Below are positions 46,985 through 63,260 of a stretch of DNA of 64,000 nt, in pieces (position 1 is the stretch's first letter; each line of letters opens with the position of its first letter). This stretch comes from Haloplanus aerogenes (GTDB taxonomy: Archaea; Halobacteriota; Halobacteria; Halobacteriales; Haloferacaceae). The stretch lies in contig NZ_CP034145.1 in NCBI RefSeq assembly GCF_003856835.1, forward strand, positions 248,001 through 312,000. The letters run 5' to 3'. Both the position numbers and the translations under genes were made by a program. Under the pieces are notes generated by a model. It ran no database searches and was not told where the DNA came from. It saw nothing but the letters and a program-made list of their open reading frames with translations.

Positions 46985-48586
46985 ATGACACGAGACGACT
47001 CAGGAGACGCCGATTCGGCGTCCGACGACGATCCGCGAGACCCGACGACTGTGACCGACGGTGGCAACACTGCCGCCGGCGCCGACGATGTCGCGCTCGA
47101 CCCGTGGGGCTCCTCGACCGTCTCCGACTACCGCAAACTGTTCGAGGAGTTCGGCATCGAGACGTTCGACGACGTGCTCGACGAGGTGCCCAACCCACAC
47201 TATCTGATGCGCCGGGGCGTCATCTTCGGCCACCGTGACTACCGCCCCGTCGCACGGGCGCTCCGCGAGGGCGAGGACGCCGCCGTCCTCTCGGGCTTCA
47301 TGCCCACCGGCGACCCACACATCGGCCACAAACTCGTCTTCGACGAGATCATCTGGCACCAGCAGGAAGGCGCGGACGCCTACGCTCTCATCGCCGACTT
47401 GGAGGCCCACAGCGCCCGCGGCCTCTCGTGGGACGAAATCGACGAACACGCCCGCGACTACCTGCTCTCCTTGCTCGCGCTGGGGTTCGACCCCGAGGAC
47501 GGGGAGCTGTATCGGCAGTCCACGAACCGCGAGGTGCAGGATCTCGCGTTCGAACTCGGGTCGAACGCCCGCTTCGCGGAGTTCGAGGGAATCTACGGCT
47601 TCGACGGCGAAACTTCCGTCTCCCACATGCAGTCCGTCGTCACGCAGATGGCTGACATCCTCTATCCCCAGCTCGAGGAGCCGAAGCCGACGGTCATCCC
47701 CGTCGGCCCGGATCAGGACCCACACATGCGCCTCGCGCGCGACGTGGCCGCGCGGATGCGCTACTTCAAGGTGACCGAGGCCTACGCGAGCTTCGAGGCC
47801 GACGCCGCGGAGCGCGACCACCTCGCGGCCGCCTACGCGGCACTAGAGGACGACCTCGACACCGTGCGCTGTGAGGACGCCGCCGACTGGCTGGAGGCGG
47901 AGATGGCGCCCGACGCCGTCCGCGACACGGTGATAGAGAAACTCCGCGCGGCGGGGAAGGAGCCGCTCCGTCCCCGGGTTCGCTTCCTCGACCGCAACGC
48001 CACCGACGAGGCCTTCGACGCCCTGATCGACGCCGTGCCGGGCGAGAAGCGCCGCTACGACGAACACATCGACGCGTTCGACATGGACCGCGAGGCGGCC
48101 GAGGAGTTGGCCCGCGAGGTGGAGGTCGACCACGGCGGCTACGGTTTCCTCCCGCCCTCTTCCATCTACCACCGGTTCATGACGGGGCTGACGGGTGGGA
48201 AGATGTCCTCATCCGTCCCCGCGTCTCACATCTCCCTCCTCGACGACCCCGAGGACGGCTACGACAAGGTGAAGTCCGCGACGACGGGCGGGCGCGAGAC
48301 GGCGGAGAAACAGCGCGAGTTGGGCGGCGAGGCCGACGAGTGCCCCGTCTACGAACTCTACGCCTACCTCCTCTCCGGCGACGACGACGAGTTCGCCACC
48401 GAGGTGTACGAGGAGTGTGTCGGCGGCGAGCGCCTCTGTGGCGGCTGCAAAGAGCAGGCGGCGGAACTCATGCGCGAATTTCTGGAGGAACACCAGGAGA
48501 AACGCGACGAGATGGCGGAAGTGCTGGACGACCTGGATATCGACCTCGACTCGGATCGCCGAGGCGTGCCCGGTAGTGGGCACTAG
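46985..48586 (+). CDS. trpS: Tryptophanyl-tRNA synthetase
   Basis: 533 residues. Class I signatures: TGDPHIGHKLVFDE (HIGH) and GGKMSSSVPAS (KMSKS). An acidic N-terminal extension (about 1–35) and an extended C-terminal segment (EECVGGERLCGGCKEQAAELMREFLEEHQ) are usual in archaeal forms. Pre-coupled to endA upstream. A T-run (TTTTTT at 48600–48605) lies about 14 bases after the stop and may end the transcript. Confidence 0.96.
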   Translation: MTRDDSGDADSASDDDPRDPTTVTDGGNTAAGADDVALDPWGSSTVSDYRKLFEEFGIETFDDVLDEVPNPHYLMRRGVIFGHRDYRPVARALREGEDAAVLSGFMPTGDPHIGHKLVFDEIIWHQQEGADAYALIADLEAHSARGLSWDEIDEHARDYLLSLLALGFDPEDGELYRQSTNREVQDLAFELGSNARFAEFEGIYGFDGETSVSHMQSVVTQMADILYPQLEEPKPTVIPVGPDQDPHMRLARDVAARMRYFKVTEAYASFEADAAERDHLAAAYAALEDDLDTVRCEDAADWLEAEMAPDAVRDTVIEKLRAAGKEPLRPRVRFLDRNATDEAFDALIDAVPGEKRRYDEHIDAFDMDREAAEELAREVEVDHGGYGFLPPSSIYHRFMTGLTGGKMSSSVPASHISLLDDPEDGYDKVKSATTGGRETAEKQRELGGEADECPVYELYAYLLSGDDDEFATEVYEECVGGERLCGGCKEQAAELMREFLEEHQEKRDEMAEVLDDLDIDLDSDRRGVPGSGH

Positions 48587-48595
48587 GGGTTGCAG

Positions 48596-48606
48596 AACGC
48601 TTTTTT
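48596..48606 (+). promoter_or_regulatory. T-rich element between trpS and the pheS leader
   Basis: The run of about six T lies 24–30 bases before the leader ATG at 48630. It is at the right place for both a trpS terminator and a weak TATA (CTTTTTTG) for the pheS leader. Confidence 0.4.
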
Positions 48607-48629
48607 GCCACCGCACGAATCGAACCCAC

Positions 48630-48716
48630 ATGGCGACCGAACCCGCCACGACCGACTCGCTCGCCCGCGAAGCGACCGCGTTCGGGTTCGGCTTCGGTTT
48701 CTTTTCCCACCGTTAG
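48630..48716 (+). CDS. Phe-rich leader peptide upstream of pheS
   Basis: 28 residues starting MATEPATTDSLAREATA, then F-G-F-G-F-G-F-F and ending SHR. Five phenylalanines fall in the last eleven residues (codons at 48681, 48687, 48693, 48699 and 48702), directly upstream of the genes for the phenylalanyl-tRNA synthetase, as with bacterial pheM leaders. It begins 24–30 bases after a T-rich element, so could be a leaderless transcript. The stop TAG (48714–48716) is followed by strong hairpins. A control role, by ribosome stalling at the Phe codons when charged tRNA-Phe is short, is inferred. Confidence 0.75.
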   Translation: MATEPATTDSLAREATAFGFGFGFFSHR

Positions 48717-48719
48717 GTC

Positions 48720-48788
48720 GGCGGACTCCGCCCGCGGCGGGCGGACGAAATCGACCCGCTCGGCCGGCCACGCGGCGGGCGTGGCCGG
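48720..48788 (+). promoter_or_regulatory. Attenuator-like hairpins between leader peptide and pheS
   Basis: Three stems: A GGCGG-ACT-CCGCC (48720–48732), four bases past the leader stop; B TCCGCCCG/CGGGCGGA (48727–48734 with 48738–48745); C a 10-bp perfect stem CCGGCCACGC/GGCGTGGCCGG-like (48764–48773 with 48779–48788). A and B cannot form together because they share 48727–48732. A ribosome at the stop would cover A and allow B; stalled at the Phe codons it would leave A free. No T-run follows C. Confidence 0.6.
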
Positions 48789-48840
48789 AAGCCTTCGGAA
48801 CTGCTAACTGGCCAGCTTGGATGAACGTGGACAAGAGAGA

Positions 48841-50346
48841 ATGCGACTCCCGGAATCACAGGTCGCGGTGTTGGAAGCCGCGAGCGCGACGGAGGAACGG
48901 ACGATCGAACAGTTGAGCGACGACACGGGCCTGAAACCCGAGACGGTGACGGGCGCGGCCTTCGATCTCGAAGACGAGGGATTGGTGTCGGTGTCGGCCG
49001 CCGAGACGGTATCCTACGCCGTCACGGACGAGGGCGAGACGTACGCCGACGCGGGCCTGCCCGAGGTGCGCCTCTACCGCGCCGCCGTCGACGCCGGCGC
49101 CGACGATGCCCCCGTCTCGATGGGCGAAGTCATCGGCGCGGCCGACCTCGGTGGCCCCGCGGTGGACATCGCCCTCGCCAACTACGCCCGGAAGGGGTAC
49201 GGCGAGGTGAAGTCGGGACAGATTACCGCCGACCCCGACGCGGACCCCGACGCAGACCCCGAGGCGGCGGCGCTGGCTGCGCTGGTCGACGGTGAGGACG
49301 GCGCGGACGAGGACGCCCTCGACGAACTCGTCCGCCGTGGGCTCGTCGAACGGAGCGAGGGCGCCGTCCGCTCGGTGACGCTCACCGACGCGGGCGTGAC
49401 CGCCCTGATGGAGGGCGTCGAGGTGGCGGCAACGGTCGACCGCCTCACGCCCGAGATGCTCGCTTCCGGCGAGTGGCAGGACGTAGAGTTCGCGGCGTAC
49501 AACGTCGAGGCCGACGCGCCGGAGACCCGCGGCGGCAAGGTCCACATCCTGCGCCAGACCGCCGAGCGCGTGAAGGACACGCTCGTCGGCATGGGCTTCC
49601 GGGAGATGGATGGCCCCCACGCCGACTCGGAGTTCTGGATCAACGACTGCCTGTTCATGCCGCAGGATCACCCGGCGCGCACCCACTGGGACCAGTTCGC
49701 GCTCGACGTGCCGCCGATGCGGGACATTCCGGAAGACCTGCTGGATCGCGTCCGCTCGGCCCACCTCGACGGCGTCGGCGAGGACGGCGACGGCTACCAC
49801 TCGCCGTGGACCGAGGCGGTGGCCCGCGAGGTGGACCTCCGGGGTCACACCACGTCGCTCTCGATGCGCTACCTCTCCGGGCACGAAATCGGGGAGCTCG
49901 AACCCCCGGAACGCTTCTTCAGCGTCGAGAAGGTGTACCGCAACGACACGCTCGATCCGACGCACCTGCTGGAGTTCTTCCAGATCGAGGGGTGGGTGAT
50001 GGCCGAGGATCTCTCCGTCCGTGACCTGATGGGCACGTTCGAGGAGTTCTACGAGCAGTTCGGCATCACCGACCTGCAGTTCAAGCCCCACTACAACCCC
50101 TACACCGAGCCGTCGTTCGAACTGTTCGGCACGCACCCCGAGACGGGTGAGTTGATCGAAATCGGTAACAGCGGCATGTTCCGCGAGGAAGTCCTCCGCC
50201 CGCTCGGCGTCGAGTGCAACGTGATGGCGTGGGGACTGGCGCTCGAACGACTCCTGATGCTCATGTACGGCTTCGACGACATCCGCGACGTGCACGGGAC
50301 GCTGTGTGATCTGGACCTCCTGCGGGAGACGGAGGTGCTTCACTGA
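48841..50346 (+). CDS. pheS: Phenylalanyl-tRNA synthetase α subunit
   Basis: 501 residues from ATG 48841 (MRLPESQVAVLEAASATEER); a TTG frame extension is rejected. N-terminal winged helices typical of archaeal PheS, then class II motif 2 (FSVEKVYRNDTLDPTHLLEFFQIEGWVM) and motif 3 (GLALERLLMLMYG). Works as α2β2 with PheT; its TGA overlaps the pheT ATG by one base. Regulated, probably, by the Phe leader upstream. Confidence 0.97.
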   Translation: MRLPESQVAVLEAASATEERTIEQLSDDTGLKPETVTGAAFDLEDEGLVSVSAAETVSYAVTDEGETYADAGLPEVRLYRAAVDAGADDAPVSMGEVIGAADLGGPAVDIALANYARKGYGEVKSGQITADPDADPDADPEAAALAALVDGEDGADEDALDELVRRGLVERSEGAVRSVTLTDAGVTALMEGVEVAATVDRLTPEMLASGEWQDVEFAAYNVEADAPETRGGKVHILRQTAERVKDTLVGMGFREMDGPHADSEFWINDCLFMPQDHPARTHWDQFALDVPPMRDIPEDLLDRVRSAHLDGVGEDGDGYHSPWTEAVAREVDLRGHTTSLSMRYLSGHEIGELEPPERFFSVEKVYRNDTLDPTHLLEFFQIEGWVMAEDLSVRDLMGTFEEFYEQFGITDLQFKPHYNPYTEPSFELFGTHPETGELIEIGNSGMFREEVLRPLGVECNVMAWGLALERLLMLMYGFDDIRDVHGTLCDLDLLRETEVLH

Positions 50347-52064
50347 TGCCCGTCGTCGACGTCGACCCCGACGAACTCCGGCGGCTGACGGGCCACGAGG
50401 AGAAAGACGACGACGAGTTGATCGACGACCTGTTCGCGCTCGGCCTCGAATTCGAGGGCGAGACGGAAGAGGGCGAACTCCAGTTGGAGTTCGGCCCCGA
50501 CCGACTGGACCGCCTCTCCGTCGAGGGCGTCGCCCGCTCCCTGCGGTACCAGTACGGCGACGACCGGGGCGTCTACGTCCCCAACACGAACGACCCCGAC
50601 TGGACCATCGAGGTGGACGAGTCGGTGCCCGACGAGCGGCCGTACGTCACCGGCGCGGTGATCCGCGGCGTCGACCTCGACGAGACGGCGCTCGACTCGC
50701 TGATCCAGTTGCAGGAGAAACTCCACGCGACGATGGGGCGGAAACGAGAGAAAGGCGCCATCGGGATTCACGACCTCACGATGCTGAAAGGCGAGGTGCT
50801 GAGCGAGGACGCCCGGGACGGCCACGCCATCACTTACCGCGGCGTCGACCCCGAAGGCGACCGGTTCGTCCCGCTCGACTCGGACCAGGAGATGACGCCC
50901 GCACAGGTGCTGGACGAGCACCCGACCGGCGAGACGTACGCGCCCATCGTCCGCGACTACGAGCGCTACCCCGCCATCTACGACGAAATCGGGCTGTTCT
51001 CGTTCCCGCCGGTCATCAACGGCCGCCGGACCGAGGTGTCGACCGATTCGCGTGACCTGTTCGTCGAGTTGACTGGCACCGACCAGTGGACCATCGACCG
51101 GATGTGTAACGTCATCTGCTACGCCCTCGACGCCCGCGGTGCGACCATCGAGGATGTCGAGGTGGTCTACCCCGACGGGACGCTCCCGCGTCCCGACTTC
51201 GAGGTGGAGACGAAGACCGTCTCTCACGAGCGTATCGAGGGGATGCTCGGTGTCGATCTGGATATCGAGGAGACGGTCGACCTGTTCGAACGGTCGGGGT
51301 TGGACACCGACGTGGACACGGGCGGCGACGCCATCACCTACGAGGTGTCGATCCCGCCGTACCGCACCGACGTGCTCCACCCCCTCGACCTGGTGGACGA
51401 CGTGGGTCGCGCCTACGGATTCAACGACCTCGAACCCCGGTATCCTGACGTGGCCACCGTGGGCGGGCGGCACGACCGCTCGAAACTCGAGGCGGCGGCC
51501 CGCACGTCGCTCGTCGGCCTCGGCTTCGAGGACCTGCTCAACTTCCACATGATCTCGGAGGACGAGAACTACGAGCGGATGGGTGTCGAGCCCGGTACCC
51601 CCGTGGTCGGCGGCGGCGACCCCGTGACGATCACCGAACCTTACAGCGAGGACTACACCATGCTGCGGACGTGGGCGCTCCCCTCCCTGCTGATGGTGCT
51701 GGAGAACAACACTCACCGGGCGTATCCGCAGGACCTCGCGGAGATTGGGCTCGCCGCCGAGGCGGACGACGACGAGAACACGGGCGTCGCGGAACACCGC
51801 ACCGTCGCGGGCGTGGTGGCGCGTCACGACGCCACCTACGAGGACGCCAAGTCGCGGCTGGCGGCGCTGTGTCACGACTTCGATGTCGACCTCGAAACCC
51901 CCGCGACCGACCACCCGACGTTCATCGACGGCCGCGCGGCCGAGGTGGTGATCGACGGTCAGTCCGTGGGCGTGATCGGCGAGGTGCATCCCCGGGTGCT
52001 GGTCGAACACGACCTCGAACTGCCGGTGGCGGCGTTCGAATTCCGGCTGGACGCGCTGGAGTAA
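50346..52064 (+). CDS. pheT: Phenylalanyl-tRNA synthetase β subunit
   Basis: 572 residues, the archaeal/eukaryotic-like shorter form without the bacterial EMAP tail. Seen: the start with MPVVDVDPDELRRLTG, the B3/4 editing region (SFPPVINGRRTEVSTDSRDLFVELTG) and B5 region (YEVSIPPYRTDVLHPLDLVDDVGRAYGF), and the class II-like C-terminal (LRTWALPSLLMVLENNTHRAYPQDLAEIG). Start overlaps the pheS stop (TGATG), so translation is coupled. Confidence 0.97.
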   Translation: MPVVDVDPDELRRLTGHEEKDDDELIDDLFALGLEFEGETEEGELQLEFGPDRLDRLSVEGVARSLRYQYGDDRGVYVPNTNDPDWTIEVDESVPDERPYVTGAVIRGVDLDETALDSLIQLQEKLHATMGRKREKGAIGIHDLTMLKGEVLSEDARDGHAITYRGVDPEGDRFVPLDSDQEMTPAQVLDEHPTGETYAPIVRDYERYPAIYDEIGLFSFPPVINGRRTEVSTDSRDLFVELTGTDQWTIDRMCNVICYALDARGATIEDVEVVYPDGTLPRPDFEVETKTVSHERIEGMLGVDLDIEETVDLFERSGLDTDVDTGGDAITYEVSIPPYRTDVLHPLDLVDDVGRAYGFNDLEPRYPDVATVGGRHDRSKLEAAARTSLVGLGFEDLLNFHMISEDENYERMGVEPGTPVVGGGDPVTITEPYSEDYTMLRTWALPSLLMVLENNTHRAYPQDLAEIGLAAEADDDENTGVAEHRTVAGVVARHDATYEDAKSRLAALCHDFDVDLETPATDHPTFIDGRAAEVVIDGQSVGVIGEVHPRVLVEHDLELPVAAFEFRLDALE

Positions 52065-52076
52065 TCGGCCGGCGCG

Positions 52077-52184
52077 CTACGCCCCCTGCACGTCATCGGA
52101 GTGGTCGAATTTCTCGTGCCGTCGCTCCTCGACCGCCTTTCGGAGCGCGTCGGCTTCCTCGGAGAGCCGGATGCGCTTCGACAT
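52077..52184 (-). CDS. 35-residue small protein, antitoxin-like
   Basis: MSKRIRLSEEADALRKAVEE, then RRHEKFDHSDDVQGA. ATG 52184; a TATA-like CAAAAAATG lies about 30–37 bases upstream on the minus strand, shared region with the divergent valS. Charged, helical; the RIRLSEEADALRKAVEE phrase resembles small haloarchaeal ribbon–helix or VapB-type antitoxins, but no toxin gene is next to it. Too short to be sure; I consider it a real gene from its promoter and composition. Confidence 0.55.
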   Translation of the reverse strand: MSKRIRLSEEADALRKAVEERRHEKFDHSDDVQGA

Positions 52185-52310
52185 ATGTATGCGGTCGTAC
52201 GTGGGACGACGAGACATTTTTTGCGGCTATCGTCCGCAAGCCGTGGTTTCGCGCTCTCCCCGCTAACCGAGTCGTTTAACATCGGTCCCTCCGGTAGCGT
52301 CAGGCGAGCA

Positions 52311-54923
52311 ATGCCGAGCGGAGAATACGACCCGGAGACGGTCGAACGACAGTGGCAGGAGCGGTGGGTCGAGGAGGATCTGTACGCCTACGGAGATGGG
52401 GCTGTAGATCCGGACACCGTCTTCTCCATCGACTCGCCCCCGCCGACGGTGTCGGGGAGTCTCCACTGGGGCCACGTCTACGGCTTCACCCTGCAGGACT
52501 TCGTCGCCCGGTACAACCGGATGCAGGACAAGGACGTGTTCTTCCCGTTCGGCTACGACGACAACGGCATCGCCTCCGAACGCCTCACGGAGGACGAACT
52601 CGACATCCGCCACCAGGACTACGGGCGCCGGGAGTTCCAGGAGAAATGTCGTGAGGTCTGCGCTCGGTACGAGGAGGAGTTCACCGAGAAGATGCAGAAC
52701 CTCGGCATCTCCATCGACTGGTCGGAGACCTACCAGACCATCTCACCGGAGGTCCAGCGAACCTCCCAGCTCTCCTTCGTCGACCTCTACGAACAGGGGC
52801 GGGAGTACCGCCAGCGTGCGCCCGCCATCTGGTGTCCGGAGTGCGAGACGGCCATCTCGCAGGTCGAGACCGAGGACGACGAACAGGACAGTCACTTCCA
52901 CGACATCGCCTTCGAGGTGGTCGAGGACGACGAGCACCTCCCGGAGACGTTCACCATCTCGACGACGCGACCCGAACTCCTCCCGGCCTGCGTCTCGGTG
53001 TTCGTCCACCCCGACGACGACGCGAACGAGCACCTCGTCGGCAACCACGCACGGATTCCCCTGTTCGGACAGGAGGTGCCCATCATCGAGGACGAACGCG
53101 TCGACATGGAGACGGGATCGGGCGTCGTGATGTGCTGTACCTTCGGAGACCAGACCGACATCGAGTGGTACCAGGCGCACGACCTCGACCTGCGCATCGC
53201 CATCGACGAGTCGGGGACGCTGACCGACGTGGCGGGGGAGTACGAGGGACTCGACCGCGACGAAGCCCGCGAGGCCATCGTCGAGGACCTCGACGACGCG
53301 GGTGCCCTGCTCGACCGGCGGGCGATCACCCACACCGTCAACGTCCACGAACGCTGCGGTTCGAGCATCGAGTTCCTCGTCACGGAACAGTGGTACATCG
53401 AACTGCTCGACAAGAAAGAGGAGTACCTCGAAGCGGGCCGGCAGATGGAGTGGTATCCGGAGAAGATGTTCACGCGGTACCGCAACTGGATCGAGGGGCT
53501 CCAGTGGGACTGGTCCATCTCCCGCCAGCGCTCCTCGGGCATCCCCTTCCCGGTCTGGTACTGCGCCGAGTGCGACGCGGAAATCGTCGCCGACCGCGAG
53601 CAACTGCCGGTCGACCCGCTCTCGGACGACCCGCCCGTGGATCACTGTCCCGCGTGCGGCCACGACGAGTTCGTCCCCGAAGACGACGTGTTCGACACGT
53701 GGGCCACCTCGTCGCTGACGCCGCTAATCAACGCGGGGTGGGACTGGGACGCCGAGGCCGAGGAGATGGTGATCGAACGGCCGGAACTCTATCCGATGGA
53801 TATGCGCCCCCAGGGCCACGACATCATCTCGTTCTGGCTGTTCCACACCGTCGTCAAGTGTTACGAGCACACCGACGAGGTGCCGTTCGACAGCGTGATG
53901 ATCAACGGGATGGTCCTCGACGAGAACCGGGTGAAGATGTCGAAGTCACTCGGGAACATCGTCACGCCCGACGAGGTGCTGGAGAAGTACCCCGTCGACG
54001 CCGCGCGCTACTGGGCCGCCGGGAGCGCCGTCGGCGACGACCTGCCGTACAAGGAGAAGGGCCTGCGCGCGGGCGAGCGCCTGATGCGTAAACTCTGGAA
54101 CGCCTCGAAACTTGTCGACGACCTCACGCCGGAGAAACGGCTCTCGCAGCCCGAACTCCGCGAAATCGACCGCTGGATGCTCGCGGAACTCGACGATCAG
54201 GTCGAAACCGTCACCGGCTACTTCGAGAATCGGGAGTTCTCGAAGGCGCGTGACAGCCTCCGCTCTTTCTTCTGGCACACGTTCTGTGACGACTACCTCG
54301 AAATCGCCAAACAGCGCCTCCGCGACGGCGACGACCCGTCGGCGGCCTACACGCTCCAGACGGCCCACCGGCGCTTCTGTAAGCTGTTCGCGCCCATCCT
54401 CGCCCACGTCACCGAGGAACTCTGGCGGGATATGTACAGCGACGGGAGCGTCCACACGGCCGACTGGCCCGACCCGCTCGGTATCGAGGCGGACCTCCCG
54501 GCCGGCGAGCGGGCGATGGACGTGGTCGGCGCGCTCCGGAAGTACAAGACGGATCACCAGCTCTCGATGAACGCCGATGTGGACGCCGTGCGGGTGTACG
54601 GCGACGTGTCCGCGTTCGCCGACGACATCGAGCGCGTGATGCACGTCGACGAACTGGAGTCGGTCGACGAGGAACCGCCCGTGGAGTCCGTCGTGACCGG
54701 CGTCGACCTCGACTACTCGCTGGTCGGCCCCGAGTTCGGCAGTCAGGTGGGCGACATCGAGGCCGCTATCGGTTCGGGTGACTACGAAGTGGTCGACGGC
54801 CGCCTCCACGTCGCGGACGTGGAACTCGACGCCGAGATGTTCGAAATCGAGGAGGAACGGCGGTACACCGGCGATGGCGAGATGGTCGAAGCGGGCGATA
54901 CCGTCGTCATCGTGCGGAACTGA
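52311..54923 (+). CDS. valS: Valyl-tRNA synthetase
   Basis: 870 residues from ATG 52311 (MPSGEYDPETVERQWQERWV). Class I: PPPTVSGSLHWGHVYGF (HIGH) and NRVKMSKSLGN (KMSKS); the editing domain carries TISTTRPELLPACVSVFVHP; ends with an anticodon domain. The PPPTVSGSLHWGH pattern is that of ValS rather than IleS. Upstream in-frame ATGs (52185, 52188) would add over 40 residues without family support; GTTTAACA 30–37 bases before 52311 is a reasonable TATA. Confidence 0.96.
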   Translation: MPSGEYDPETVERQWQERWVEEDLYAYGDGAVDPDTVFSIDSPPPTVSGSLHWGHVYGFTLQDFVARYNRMQDKDVFFPFGYDDNGIASERLTEDELDIRHQDYGRREFQEKCREVCARYEEEFTEKMQNLGISIDWSETYQTISPEVQRTSQLSFVDLYEQGREYRQRAPAIWCPECETAISQVETEDDEQDSHFHDIAFEVVEDDEHLPETFTISTTRPELLPACVSVFVHPDDDANEHLVGNHARIPLFGQEVPIIEDERVDMETGSGVVMCCTFGDQTDIEWYQAHDLDLRIAIDESGTLTDVAGEYEGLDRDEAREAIVEDLDDAGALLDRRAITHTVNVHERCGSSIEFLVTEQWYIELLDKKEEYLEAGRQMEWYPEKMFTRYRNWIEGLQWDWSISRQRSSGIPFPVWYCAECDAEIVADREQLPVDPLSDDPPVDHCPACGHDEFVPEDDVFDTWATSSLTPLINAGWDWDAEAEEMVIERPELYPMDMRPQGHDIISFWLFHTVVKCYEHTDEVPFDSVMINGMVLDENRVKMSKSLGNIVTPDEVLEKYPVDAARYWAAGSAVGDDLPYKEKGLRAGERLMRKLWNASKLVDDLTPEKRLSQPELREIDRWMLAELDDQVETVTGYFENREFSKARDSLRSFFWHTFCDDYLEIAKQRLRDGDDPSAAYTLQTAHRRFCKLFAPILAHVTEELWRDMYSDGSVHTADWPDPLGIEADLPAGERAMDVVGALRKYKTDHQLSMNADVDAVRVYGDVSAFADDIERVMHVDELESVDEEPPVESVVTGVDLDYSLVGPEFGSQVGDIEAAIGSGDYEVVDGRLHVADVELDAEMFEIEEERRYTGDGEMVEAGDTVVIVRN

Positions 54924-57962: not shown

Positions 57963-59433
<1,471 letters not shown>

Positions 59434-59529
59434 ACTGACCGGGACCTCCCGCTTCCACACGGGAGGCCCACCACGTAGCGACCACTCGTCCAAGGAATCG
59501 GATCGCCCACTCGAACGACCGGGCACCTA

Positions 59530-59547
59530 CGACCCACCGAGGCTCAC
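59530..59547 (+). other. 16S processing stem, 3' arm
   Basis: CGACCCACCGAGGCTCAC, complementary to 57834–57851. Confidence 0.75.
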
Positions 59548-59578
59548 ACACCATCACCCAGCGTCCCACTTTGGGACC

Positions 59579-59650
59579 GGGCCCGTAGCTCAGCGGTAGA
59601 GCACCTCCTTTGCAAGGAGGACGCCCTGGGTTCAAATCCCAGCGGGTCCA
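59579..59650 (+). tRNA. tRNA-Ala (anticodon TGC) in the rRNA spacer
   Basis: 72 bases: acceptor GGGCCCG pairs with CGGGTCC (one G·T), anticodon arm CCTCCTTTGCAAGGAGG, T arm GGGTTCAAATCCC. Alanine tRNA between 16S and 23S is usual in archaea. No intron. Confidence 0.97.
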
Positions 59651-59674
59651 TGCCAGCCCACCGTCGCCGAAACG

Positions 59675-59690
59675 CACTGCTTAAGTGCAT
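59675..59690 (+). promoter_or_regulatory. Possible internal rRNA promoter before 23S
   Basis: GCACTGCTTAAGTGC is palindromic and its CTTAAGTG resembles the TATA of the second leader promoter. An internal promoter at this place is known in Halobacterium; here it is inferred. Confidence 0.4.
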
Positions 59691-59788
59691 GACGGCGCTC
59701 GGTTGGGCTACGCAAGACCGATGCACCATCCCGTGTGAACGCGGATGGGAAGGGTCGAACGCCCTCGCGTCCACGAGAGCGTAATGAC

Positions 59789-59810
59789 ACCGTATGTACG
59801 TGCGATCCAG
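59789..59810 (+). other. 23S processing stem, 5' arm
   Basis: 22 bases perfectly complementary to 62825–62846, enclosing the 23S gene. Confidence 0.75.
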
Positions 59811-59863
59811 GCGTCCACTGGACCCGAACAGTCATATCCGGGTCACTAGTGTGACAACCATCA

Positions 59864-62775
<2,912 letters not shown>

Positions 62776-62824
62776 ATCTGATTCGCACTGTGACCTGATC
62801 TGACTGATCGGGTCCAGGCGTTAA

Positions 62825-62846
62825 CTGGATCGCACGTACATACGGT
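62825..62846 (+). other. 23S processing stem, 3' arm
   Basis: Complement of 59789–59810. Confidence 0.75.
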
Positions 62847-62898
62847 AGTTCGACCCACCGACAGTGGTCTGATGACGGTTCGATTCCGTCGGTCGGCA

Positions 62899-63020
62899 TG
62901 AAGGCGGCCAGAGCGGCAGGGACACACCCGTACCCATCCCGAACACGGACGTTAAGCCTGTCTGCGTATCGGCCAGTACTGGAGTGCGCGAGCCTCTGGG
63001 AGACCCGATTCGCCGCCTCA
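62899..63020 (+). rRNA. rrf: 5S ribosomal RNA
   Basis: About 122 bases. Terminal helix AAGGCGGC/GCCGCCT; core CACCCGTACCCATCCCGAACACGG and GTACTGGAGTGCGCGAGCCTCTGGGAGA. Ends within about two bases of those given. Confidence 0.93.
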
Positions 63021-63152
63021 CCATTCATACTTCATTTCATTCACTCGGCGAGCGACGGCCATCCGTCCACTCGTCGCCGTTCAGCACCCGCGAGCGACGG
63101 CGTCATCGCCGACCGCTAGGCTTAAGCGCCGGACACCGATACTATCGAACGC

Positions 63153-63228
63153 GCCAAGGTGGCAGAGTTCGGCCTAACGCAGCGGCCTGCAGAGCCGCCC
63201 ATCGCCGGTTCAAATCCGGCCCTTGGCT
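63153..63228 (+). tRNA. tRNA-Cys (anticodon GCA)
   Basis: Acceptor GCCAAGG pairs with CCTTGGC; anticodon arm GCGGC-CTGCAGA-GCCGC; T arm GCCGGTTCAAATCCGGC. It ends the rRNA operon. A CTTAAG TATA-like site at 63121–63126 could give it its own promoter. Confidence 0.95.
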
Positions 63229-63260
63229 CTTCTGTTCGAGCAACACGAGAACGAAGAGCC
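63225..63260 (+). terminator. Hairpin overlapping the tRNA-Cys 3' end
   Basis: GGCTCTTC-T-GTTC (63225–63237) pairs with GAACGAAGAGCC (63249–63260), one bulged T. The first four bases belong to the tRNA. It may end the operon transcript or mark a duplicated site; there is no T-run. Confidence 0.4.

Follow-up and report, generated by a model that had tools for sequence, protein, structure and literature searches.

A conserved Phe-rich leader with an internal covarying helix upstream of pheST in Halobacteria: a probable ribosome-sensing attenuator

The window considered here, a stretch of 64,000 nucleotides from the haloarchaeon Haloplanus aerogenes, carries in front of pheST a short ORF that ends in a cluster of Phe codons and whose start-proximal codons pair with that cluster in a covarying helix, here termed S1. 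Both features recur across the Halobacteria, and a comparison of the sequences suggests that, on a leaderless mRNA, they probably form a ribosome-sensing attenuator that would control pheST by the supply of Phe-tRNA. The sensing logic is the firmest part of this reading and appears highly probable, and S1, which lies inside the ORF, is most likely the regulated helix; factor-dependent termination as the output of the sensor is proposed only tentatively. A second tryptophanyl-tRNA synthetase of these organisms has a leader of the same layout with Trp codons.

The leader in the window and across the Halobacteria

The original prediction of a Phe-rich ORF with a stop codon, followed by pheS, agrees with the sequence as read here (Table 1), Phe standing at codons 18, 20, 22, 24, and 25. 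Three features had been absent from it, namely the leaderless promoter, the intra-ORF helix S1, and the promoter-like motif before pheS. When both strands of the window were scanned generically for short ORFs that have a promoter and a helix joining the region near their start with a later part, the pheS leader was the clear best, with a promoter score of 18.3 and only two others, at 8.7 and 8.3; together with its recurrence upstream of pheS, this places the leader ORF far beyond chance. No match was found between the leader region and plasmid DNA. The leader lies in a one-direction cluster of synthetase genes at 46985-54923 (trpS, pheS, pheT, and a class I synthetase, probably valS). Between pheT and the last of these, the minus strand holds a short ORF, MSRRPTYDRIHMSKRIRLSEEADALRKAVEERRHEKFDHSDDVQGA, at 52077-52217, possibly a small protein gene, and a complete rRNA operon (16S, tRNA-Ala, 23S, 5S, tRNA-Cys) occupies 57963-63229.

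Table 1. Positions of the leader, its helices, and the neighboring genes in the window
Feature	Position	Strand	Remarks
trpS	46985-48586		Neighbor upstream of the leader
Leader promoter, BRE/TATA, CAGAACGCTTTTTT	48593-48606	+	Spacing puts transcription start at or next to the leader ATG
Leader ORF, MATEPATTDSLAREATAFGFGFGFFSHR*	48630-48716	+	28 codons, stop TAG
S1, 5' strand, CCGAACCCG	48637-48645	+	Codons 3-6
S1, 3' strand, CGGGTTCGG	48683-48691	+	Gly-Phe codons
U-rich Phe/Gly codons, CTTCGGTTTCTTTTC	48692-48706	+	Behind S1
Hairpin H2	48716-48756	+	Begins at the stop codon
H2, P1	48716-48721 with 48751-48756	+	
H2, internal loop CGGAC/CGAAA	48722-48726, 48746-48750	+	
H2, P2 (inner helix)	48727-48745	+	
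Second promoter-like motif, CGGAACTGCTAAC	48796-48808	+	Before pheS; probable basal promoter
pheS	48841-50346	+	Phenylalanyl-tRNA synthetase alpha chain
pheT	50346-52064	+	Beta chain; start overlaps the pheS stop; assigned from sequence and gene order

The 110 pheS loci fetched from Halobacteria (30 from relatives of the genome and 80 named) have 103 distinct upstream regions, and a short ORF with a Phe cluster lies upstream of pheS in 83 of them; the automatic pick at locus L108, beyond these 83, proved not to be a leader, and the one at L030 is atypical. The peptide typically reads MASEP...GFGFFFAA*, with MxxE(P/S)...GFGFFF(A)A* as its general form over 23-30 codons. A covariance model of the leader region has matches in 201 of the 243 genomes of the order, representing 69 of 77 genera, and the second matches in the genome of H. 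aerogenes itself are the antisense of the first match plus weak ones. A lack of the ORF or of its Phe cluster in related species, which would have spoken against the original prediction, is not what is seen, as both are conserved across the order. The leader is absent from about a fifth of the loci, and 20 pheS upstream regions from outside the Halobacteria contained no comparable leader. Its upstream neighbor is trpS in 30 loci and another gene in 53, and because the leader is kept in either case, it belongs with pheS.

Some loci show altered versions of this region. The promoter and the Phe region are present in L009 and L016 with the ATG gone, and these are apparently decaying leaders; the leader of L047, from a metagenome assembly, is frame-shifted and apparently a decaying or damaged copy. 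The leader of L110 has 48 codons and contains ERRTCSGV twice, an internal duplication that preserves both the frame and the Phe end, and two loci with the leader missing (L023 and L081) have instead a short Cys-rich ORF, MWMDIVPVQRFAILEAF...CPVCGG..., which ends 85 nt before pheS.

The reading frame was examined in 72 of the 103 loci, chosen by leaderless promoter, ATG, and start-proximal helix without any Phe criterion. Frame 0 meets its first stop at codons 18-32 in 71 of these, each of the other two frames is stop-free through 40 codons in 52, and Phe codons number 267 in frame 0 versus 65 and 69 in the other frames. The loop between the S1 strands ranges from 27 to 45 nt, mostly 33-39, and is always a multiple of three, although leaders were picked as in-frame ORFs and the Phe-free frame test is the fairer one. 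Substitutions that ignore the frame had been named as a reason to give up the original prediction; the frame is kept. Within the loop, substitutions show no third-position preference (45/29/36 by codon position, p 0.17), and the run of loop codons varies in length among leaders. The middle of the peptide thus appears free while frame and Phe codons are kept, as would be expected of a leader peptide, and S1 pairing accounts for the conserved N-terminal residues. An arrest peptide of the TnaC/SecM type was considered and rejected, as no conserved peptide lies upstream of the stall site and the middle varies.

Codon choice in the Phe cluster differs from that in the synthetase gene, in that TTT makes up 75 of 307 Phe codons (24%) in leaders versus 67 of 1497 (4.5%) in pheS. 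A T-run of five or more occurs in 48 of 81 leaders, and owing to the TTT enrichment U-runs are confined, within this region, to the Phe cluster. The enrichment would be accounted for either by UUU being decoded slowly or by aCPSF1 requiring a U-tract; in Methanococcus, aCPSF1 binds U tracts, needing U4 or longer (PMC8716108).

Upstream of the ORF, CRNAACGYTTTT stands in fixed register to the leader ATG, with A at -34 in 80 and T at -28 in 81 of 82 loci. With a BRE/TATA element of the haloarchaeal consensus (PMC4983044) located ~26-37 nt from the start codon, the leader mRNA is predicted to be leaderless. Table 2 of the Haloferax volcanii dRNA-seq study gives pheS (HVO_2948) a 5'-UTR of 150-250 nt that holds a 26-aa uORF, and no additional TSS is listed at pheS (PMC4983044); pheS transcripts starting after the leader, a further outcome that would have told against the original prediction, are therefore not what this species presents. 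Leaders of 26 aa, starting 212 nt upstream of pheS and so inside the 150-250-nt class, are found in five Haloferax species. The H. volcanii uORF product has a mass of 2772 Da and a pI of 5.9 (PMC4983044), and the nearest leaders in our set compute to 2792-2850 Da and pI 4.4-5.9. Taken together, conservation of the ORF and its Phe cluster, the frame, and the H. volcanii 5'-UTR support the idea that a Phe-rich leader peptide is positioned for control of pheST.

The second promoter-like motif occurs also in loci without a leader, and its distance to the pheS ATG is never below 25 nt, as for a TATA box. It may supply a basal level of pheS, and no TSS is listed there in H. volcanii. Such a promoter could bypass the leader, a point that counts against the attenuator reading.

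Helices in and behind the reading frame

S1 is a covarying helix of about 8-12 bp that joins codons 3-6 with the Gly-Phe codons. In the RNA of the window its pair probabilities are about 0.96-0.97, and those of P1 of H2 about 0.87. Paired changes include GAACCC/GGGTTC and GAATCC/GGATTC; GAACTC is paired with GAGTTC in L011, CTCGAACGCG with CGCGTTCGAG in L074, and GACCCC with GGGGTC in L017, where pairing is kept at the cost of a Phe to Val change. The Glu codon at position 4 is GAA in 67 leaders and GAG in 3, whereas pheS prefers GAG, which indicates a constraint on the RNA beyond the amino acid alone.

On 61 aligned sequences, 89.5% of the cells of S1 and H2 are paired, and double changes number 181 versus 68.4 +- 5.8 in shuffles, with slid controls all far below. 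Unguided RNAalifold folding of the same sequences gives a consensus of S1 and H2 only. Counted as independent row pairs on the PheS tree, almost all informative changes run in the compensating direction (for example, by 4 to 0 at columns 8-77 and likewise at 120-156), with no single column pair significant on that tree, the aligned sequences being related. The stability of whole-region folding is ordinary (z -0.31), and the structural case is one of covariation, not of whole-region stability.

In 57 of the 61 loci, no more than 5 nt separate the start of H2 from the last base of the stop codon, and the last Phe codon lies mostly 9-14 nt upstream of it. Its internal loop, YGGAC/CGAAA, is almost invariant across the aligned loci inside covarying helices. 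This hairpin accounts for much of what the original prediction had drawn as two mutually exclusive arms: hairpin B is real, although not as a separate switch arm, being P2 of the larger conserved H2, and hairpin A (48720-48732), which can be drawn in the window, lies inside the conserved P1 and internal loop and is not predicted by RNAalifold on the 61 sequences. Stem C (48764-48788) likewise folds in the window, but related loci hold unrelated sequence there. The observation that no U-run follows B or C holds more widely, as the stretch from the leader stop to pheS contains no T-run longer than three in any of 81 loci; nor was any conserved terminator or alternative helix found there, by T-runs in those loci or in the consensus fold.

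Other candidates were also rejected. Pairing of the Gly-Phe codons with H2 (GGUUCG/CGAAACC), judged by eye, fails to follow the change from GGGTTC to GGATTC. No Rfam 15 family reaches its gathering threshold in the window or the related loci, and a T-box riboswitch is rejected in that neither the window nor the related loci match the curated family model.

A tryptophan counterpart

Since a 23-aa uORF is listed for H. volcanii before the tryptophan--tRNA ligase HVO_A0127, again with a 5'-UTR of 150-250 nt (PMC4983044 Table 2), the family of this second TrpRS was fetched. Genes of the paralog carry leaders with a Trp cluster (WRW), for example, MVSTSHANCWRWHAFREVDSIAV and MRSALRTWRWQTPGERTVS. 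Such leaders, which are leaderless, lie upstream of the paralog at loci L111-L118 and L192-L221, and for 32 sequences RNAalifold predicts the start-proximal helix alone, exemplified by GTCCGCTCTCCG with CGGAGAGCGGAC. Compensatory changes are seen at its pairs (GC 21/AT 11; CG 21/TA 10; CG 18/TA 12/AT 1), and the Trp leader differs from the Phe leader in sequence and shares its layout. The 32 sequences lack H2, and no U-tract follows directly on their S1; neither is therefore essential to a common mechanism. In all likelihood, the H. volcanii uORFs before pheS and HVO_A0127 are the two leaders described here; that study lists them, as far as the portion of PMC4983044 considered here goes, only as small proteins in long 5'-UTRs, with no mention of cognate codons, helices, conservation, or regulation.

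At L113, L198, and other loci of the TrpRS paralog, a strongly conserved, pyrimidine-rich stretch resembling GCTCACTCGCTTTCTC is found 60-110 nt ahead of the synthetase gene and may be a site of termination or processing.

When the generic scan was applied to both strands of a fetched set of about 2 Mb, enriched for these loci, it gave 129 matches: Phe leaders made up 115 and Trp leaders 12, and of the remaining two one was a Phe leader with a broken frame and the other was unrelated. No other recurring leader of the S1 type was found among the synthetase loci of the H. aerogenes genome (three Pfam families), 15 strict promoter matches, and the trp biosynthesis loci of relatives.

Proposed mechanism, alternatives, and known systems

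We infer a chain that leads from leader translation through stalling on cognate codons when charged tRNA is scarce, and exclusion of S1, to higher synthetase expression. The S1 loop (mostly 33-39 nt) would be about the size of one ribosome footprint, so that S1 would close only in a leader free of ribosomes. With ample Phe-tRNA, the ribosome would finish and depart, and S1 would close over the start region; because nt 7-18 of a leaderless mRNA are part of S1, closure would block initiation and stop further ribosome loading on an mRNA that is initiated from its 5' end. The untranslated RNA ahead of pheS, with its U-rich Phe codons exposed, would then be lost to termination (probably by aCPSF1/FttA) or to decay. 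When Phe-tRNA is scarce, a ribosome stalled on the Phe codons would keep S1 open and cover the U-rich tract, and transcription would continue into pheST; transcription-translation coupling has been reported in H. volcanii (PMC8576121). With H2 9-14 nt past the last Phe codon, a ribosome translating the Phe codons would run into the hairpin with its front edge and could be slowed. The TrpRS paralog would follow the same plan with Trp codons.

These considerations might point to an archaeal class of attenuator, in which an initiation-region helix on a leaderless mRNA is held open only by a ribosome on cognate codons and the mRNA locks itself when the amino acid is plentiful, serving at least Phe and a Trp synthetase without a terminator hairpin and through a CPSF-like factor or decay. 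We offer this generalization with some reserve.

The output may be questioned more readily than the sensor. It is conceivable, although somewhat unlikely, that the same sensor acts post-transcriptionally, a stalled ribosome and open S1 protecting the mRNA from decay or altering pheS translation. No terminator lies between leader and pheS, and S1, the element that the Phe and Trp leaders have in common, covers the 5' end on closing, the site of both initiation and 5'-end decay; the U-runs made by TTT, however, fit a termination factor better, though slow decoding explains them too. An improbable reading takes S1 and the U-rich Phe codons for an intrinsic promoter-proximal terminator within the ORF, which any closely following ribosome would prevent from acting, so that general translation rather than Phe would be reported. 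The position of S1 directly before UUY UUY UUY and the T-runs of five or more in 48 of 81 leaders are as such a terminator would have them, but polymerase would pass the tract before the ribosome decodes it, which would make cognate codons useless, and in the Trp leaders cognate codons are present although no U-tract follows S1.

Hardly more promising is a structured RNA bound by a protein (e.g., PheRS) or a ligand, with the ORF secondary. The nearly invariant internal loop of H2 within covarying helices would suit such binding, whereas the retention of frame, Phe cluster, and leaderless start, a Trp system that does without H2, and the lack of an Rfam match speak against it. That the ORF is an independent small-protein gene standing before pheS by chance, a reading that PMC4983044 offers for uORFs in general, is very improbable given that the peptide middle is not conserved, that the leader stays with pheS despite differing upstream genes (trpS in 30 loci, another in 53), and that RNA pairing constrains its codons. 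The least probable reading is the switch between hairpins A and B of the original prediction, for although the two overlap in the window, conservation is lacking for A, B forms part of a single constitutive hairpin, related loci do not share C, and RNAalifold (61 sequences) and pair counts favor P1 and P2 of H2 over A.

Ribosome-mediated attenuation is a textbook bacterial device, and E. coli pheM-pheST and trpL/pheL are cases of ribosome-mediated transcription attenuation. The halobacterial ribosome-sensing leader resembles this type in its short cognate-codon ORF before the gene, its covarying helices, and a stalled ribosome that would exclude a helix; as with trpL and pheM, clustered cognate codons stand directly before the cognate gene, for both Phe and Trp. 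It differs in being archaeal and leaderless, and in that its helix joins the start region of the ORF to the cognate codons. Between the halobacterial leader and pheS there is neither a terminator hairpin with a U-run nor an antiterminator (81 loci; consensus fold), and because this defining pair was sought and not found, the leader is not classed as a bacterial-type attenuator. In tnaC-type attenuation, which uses Rho, stalling depends on the nascent TnaC peptide and on free Trp. The proposed output is similar in that a stalled ribosome would mask the site of a termination factor, but at pheS the factor would be aCPSF1/FttA and its site the U-rich Phe codons, and the leader peptide shows no conservation in its middle part.

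We know of no S1-type helix in trpL of Sinorhizobium meliloti. The attenuator leader mRNA of that gene is leaderless, its transcript likewise beginning at the AUG of the leader ORF, but it is bacterial, stands before trpE(G), and yields an attenuated RNA that acts also in trans (PMC7298713). No archaeal ribosome-mediated attenuator was found in the open-access papers searched, and priority is not certain.

Finally, an order-wide covarying pheST leader with a Trp counterpart would mean, if true, that archaea too sense amino acids via the ribosome. Haloarchaea have leaderless mRNAs and a CPSF-like terminator, and for this reason such a leader would be a natural, testable reporter for archaeal transcription-translation coupling. 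Both leaders are very probably present in H. volcanii, a genetically tractable species.
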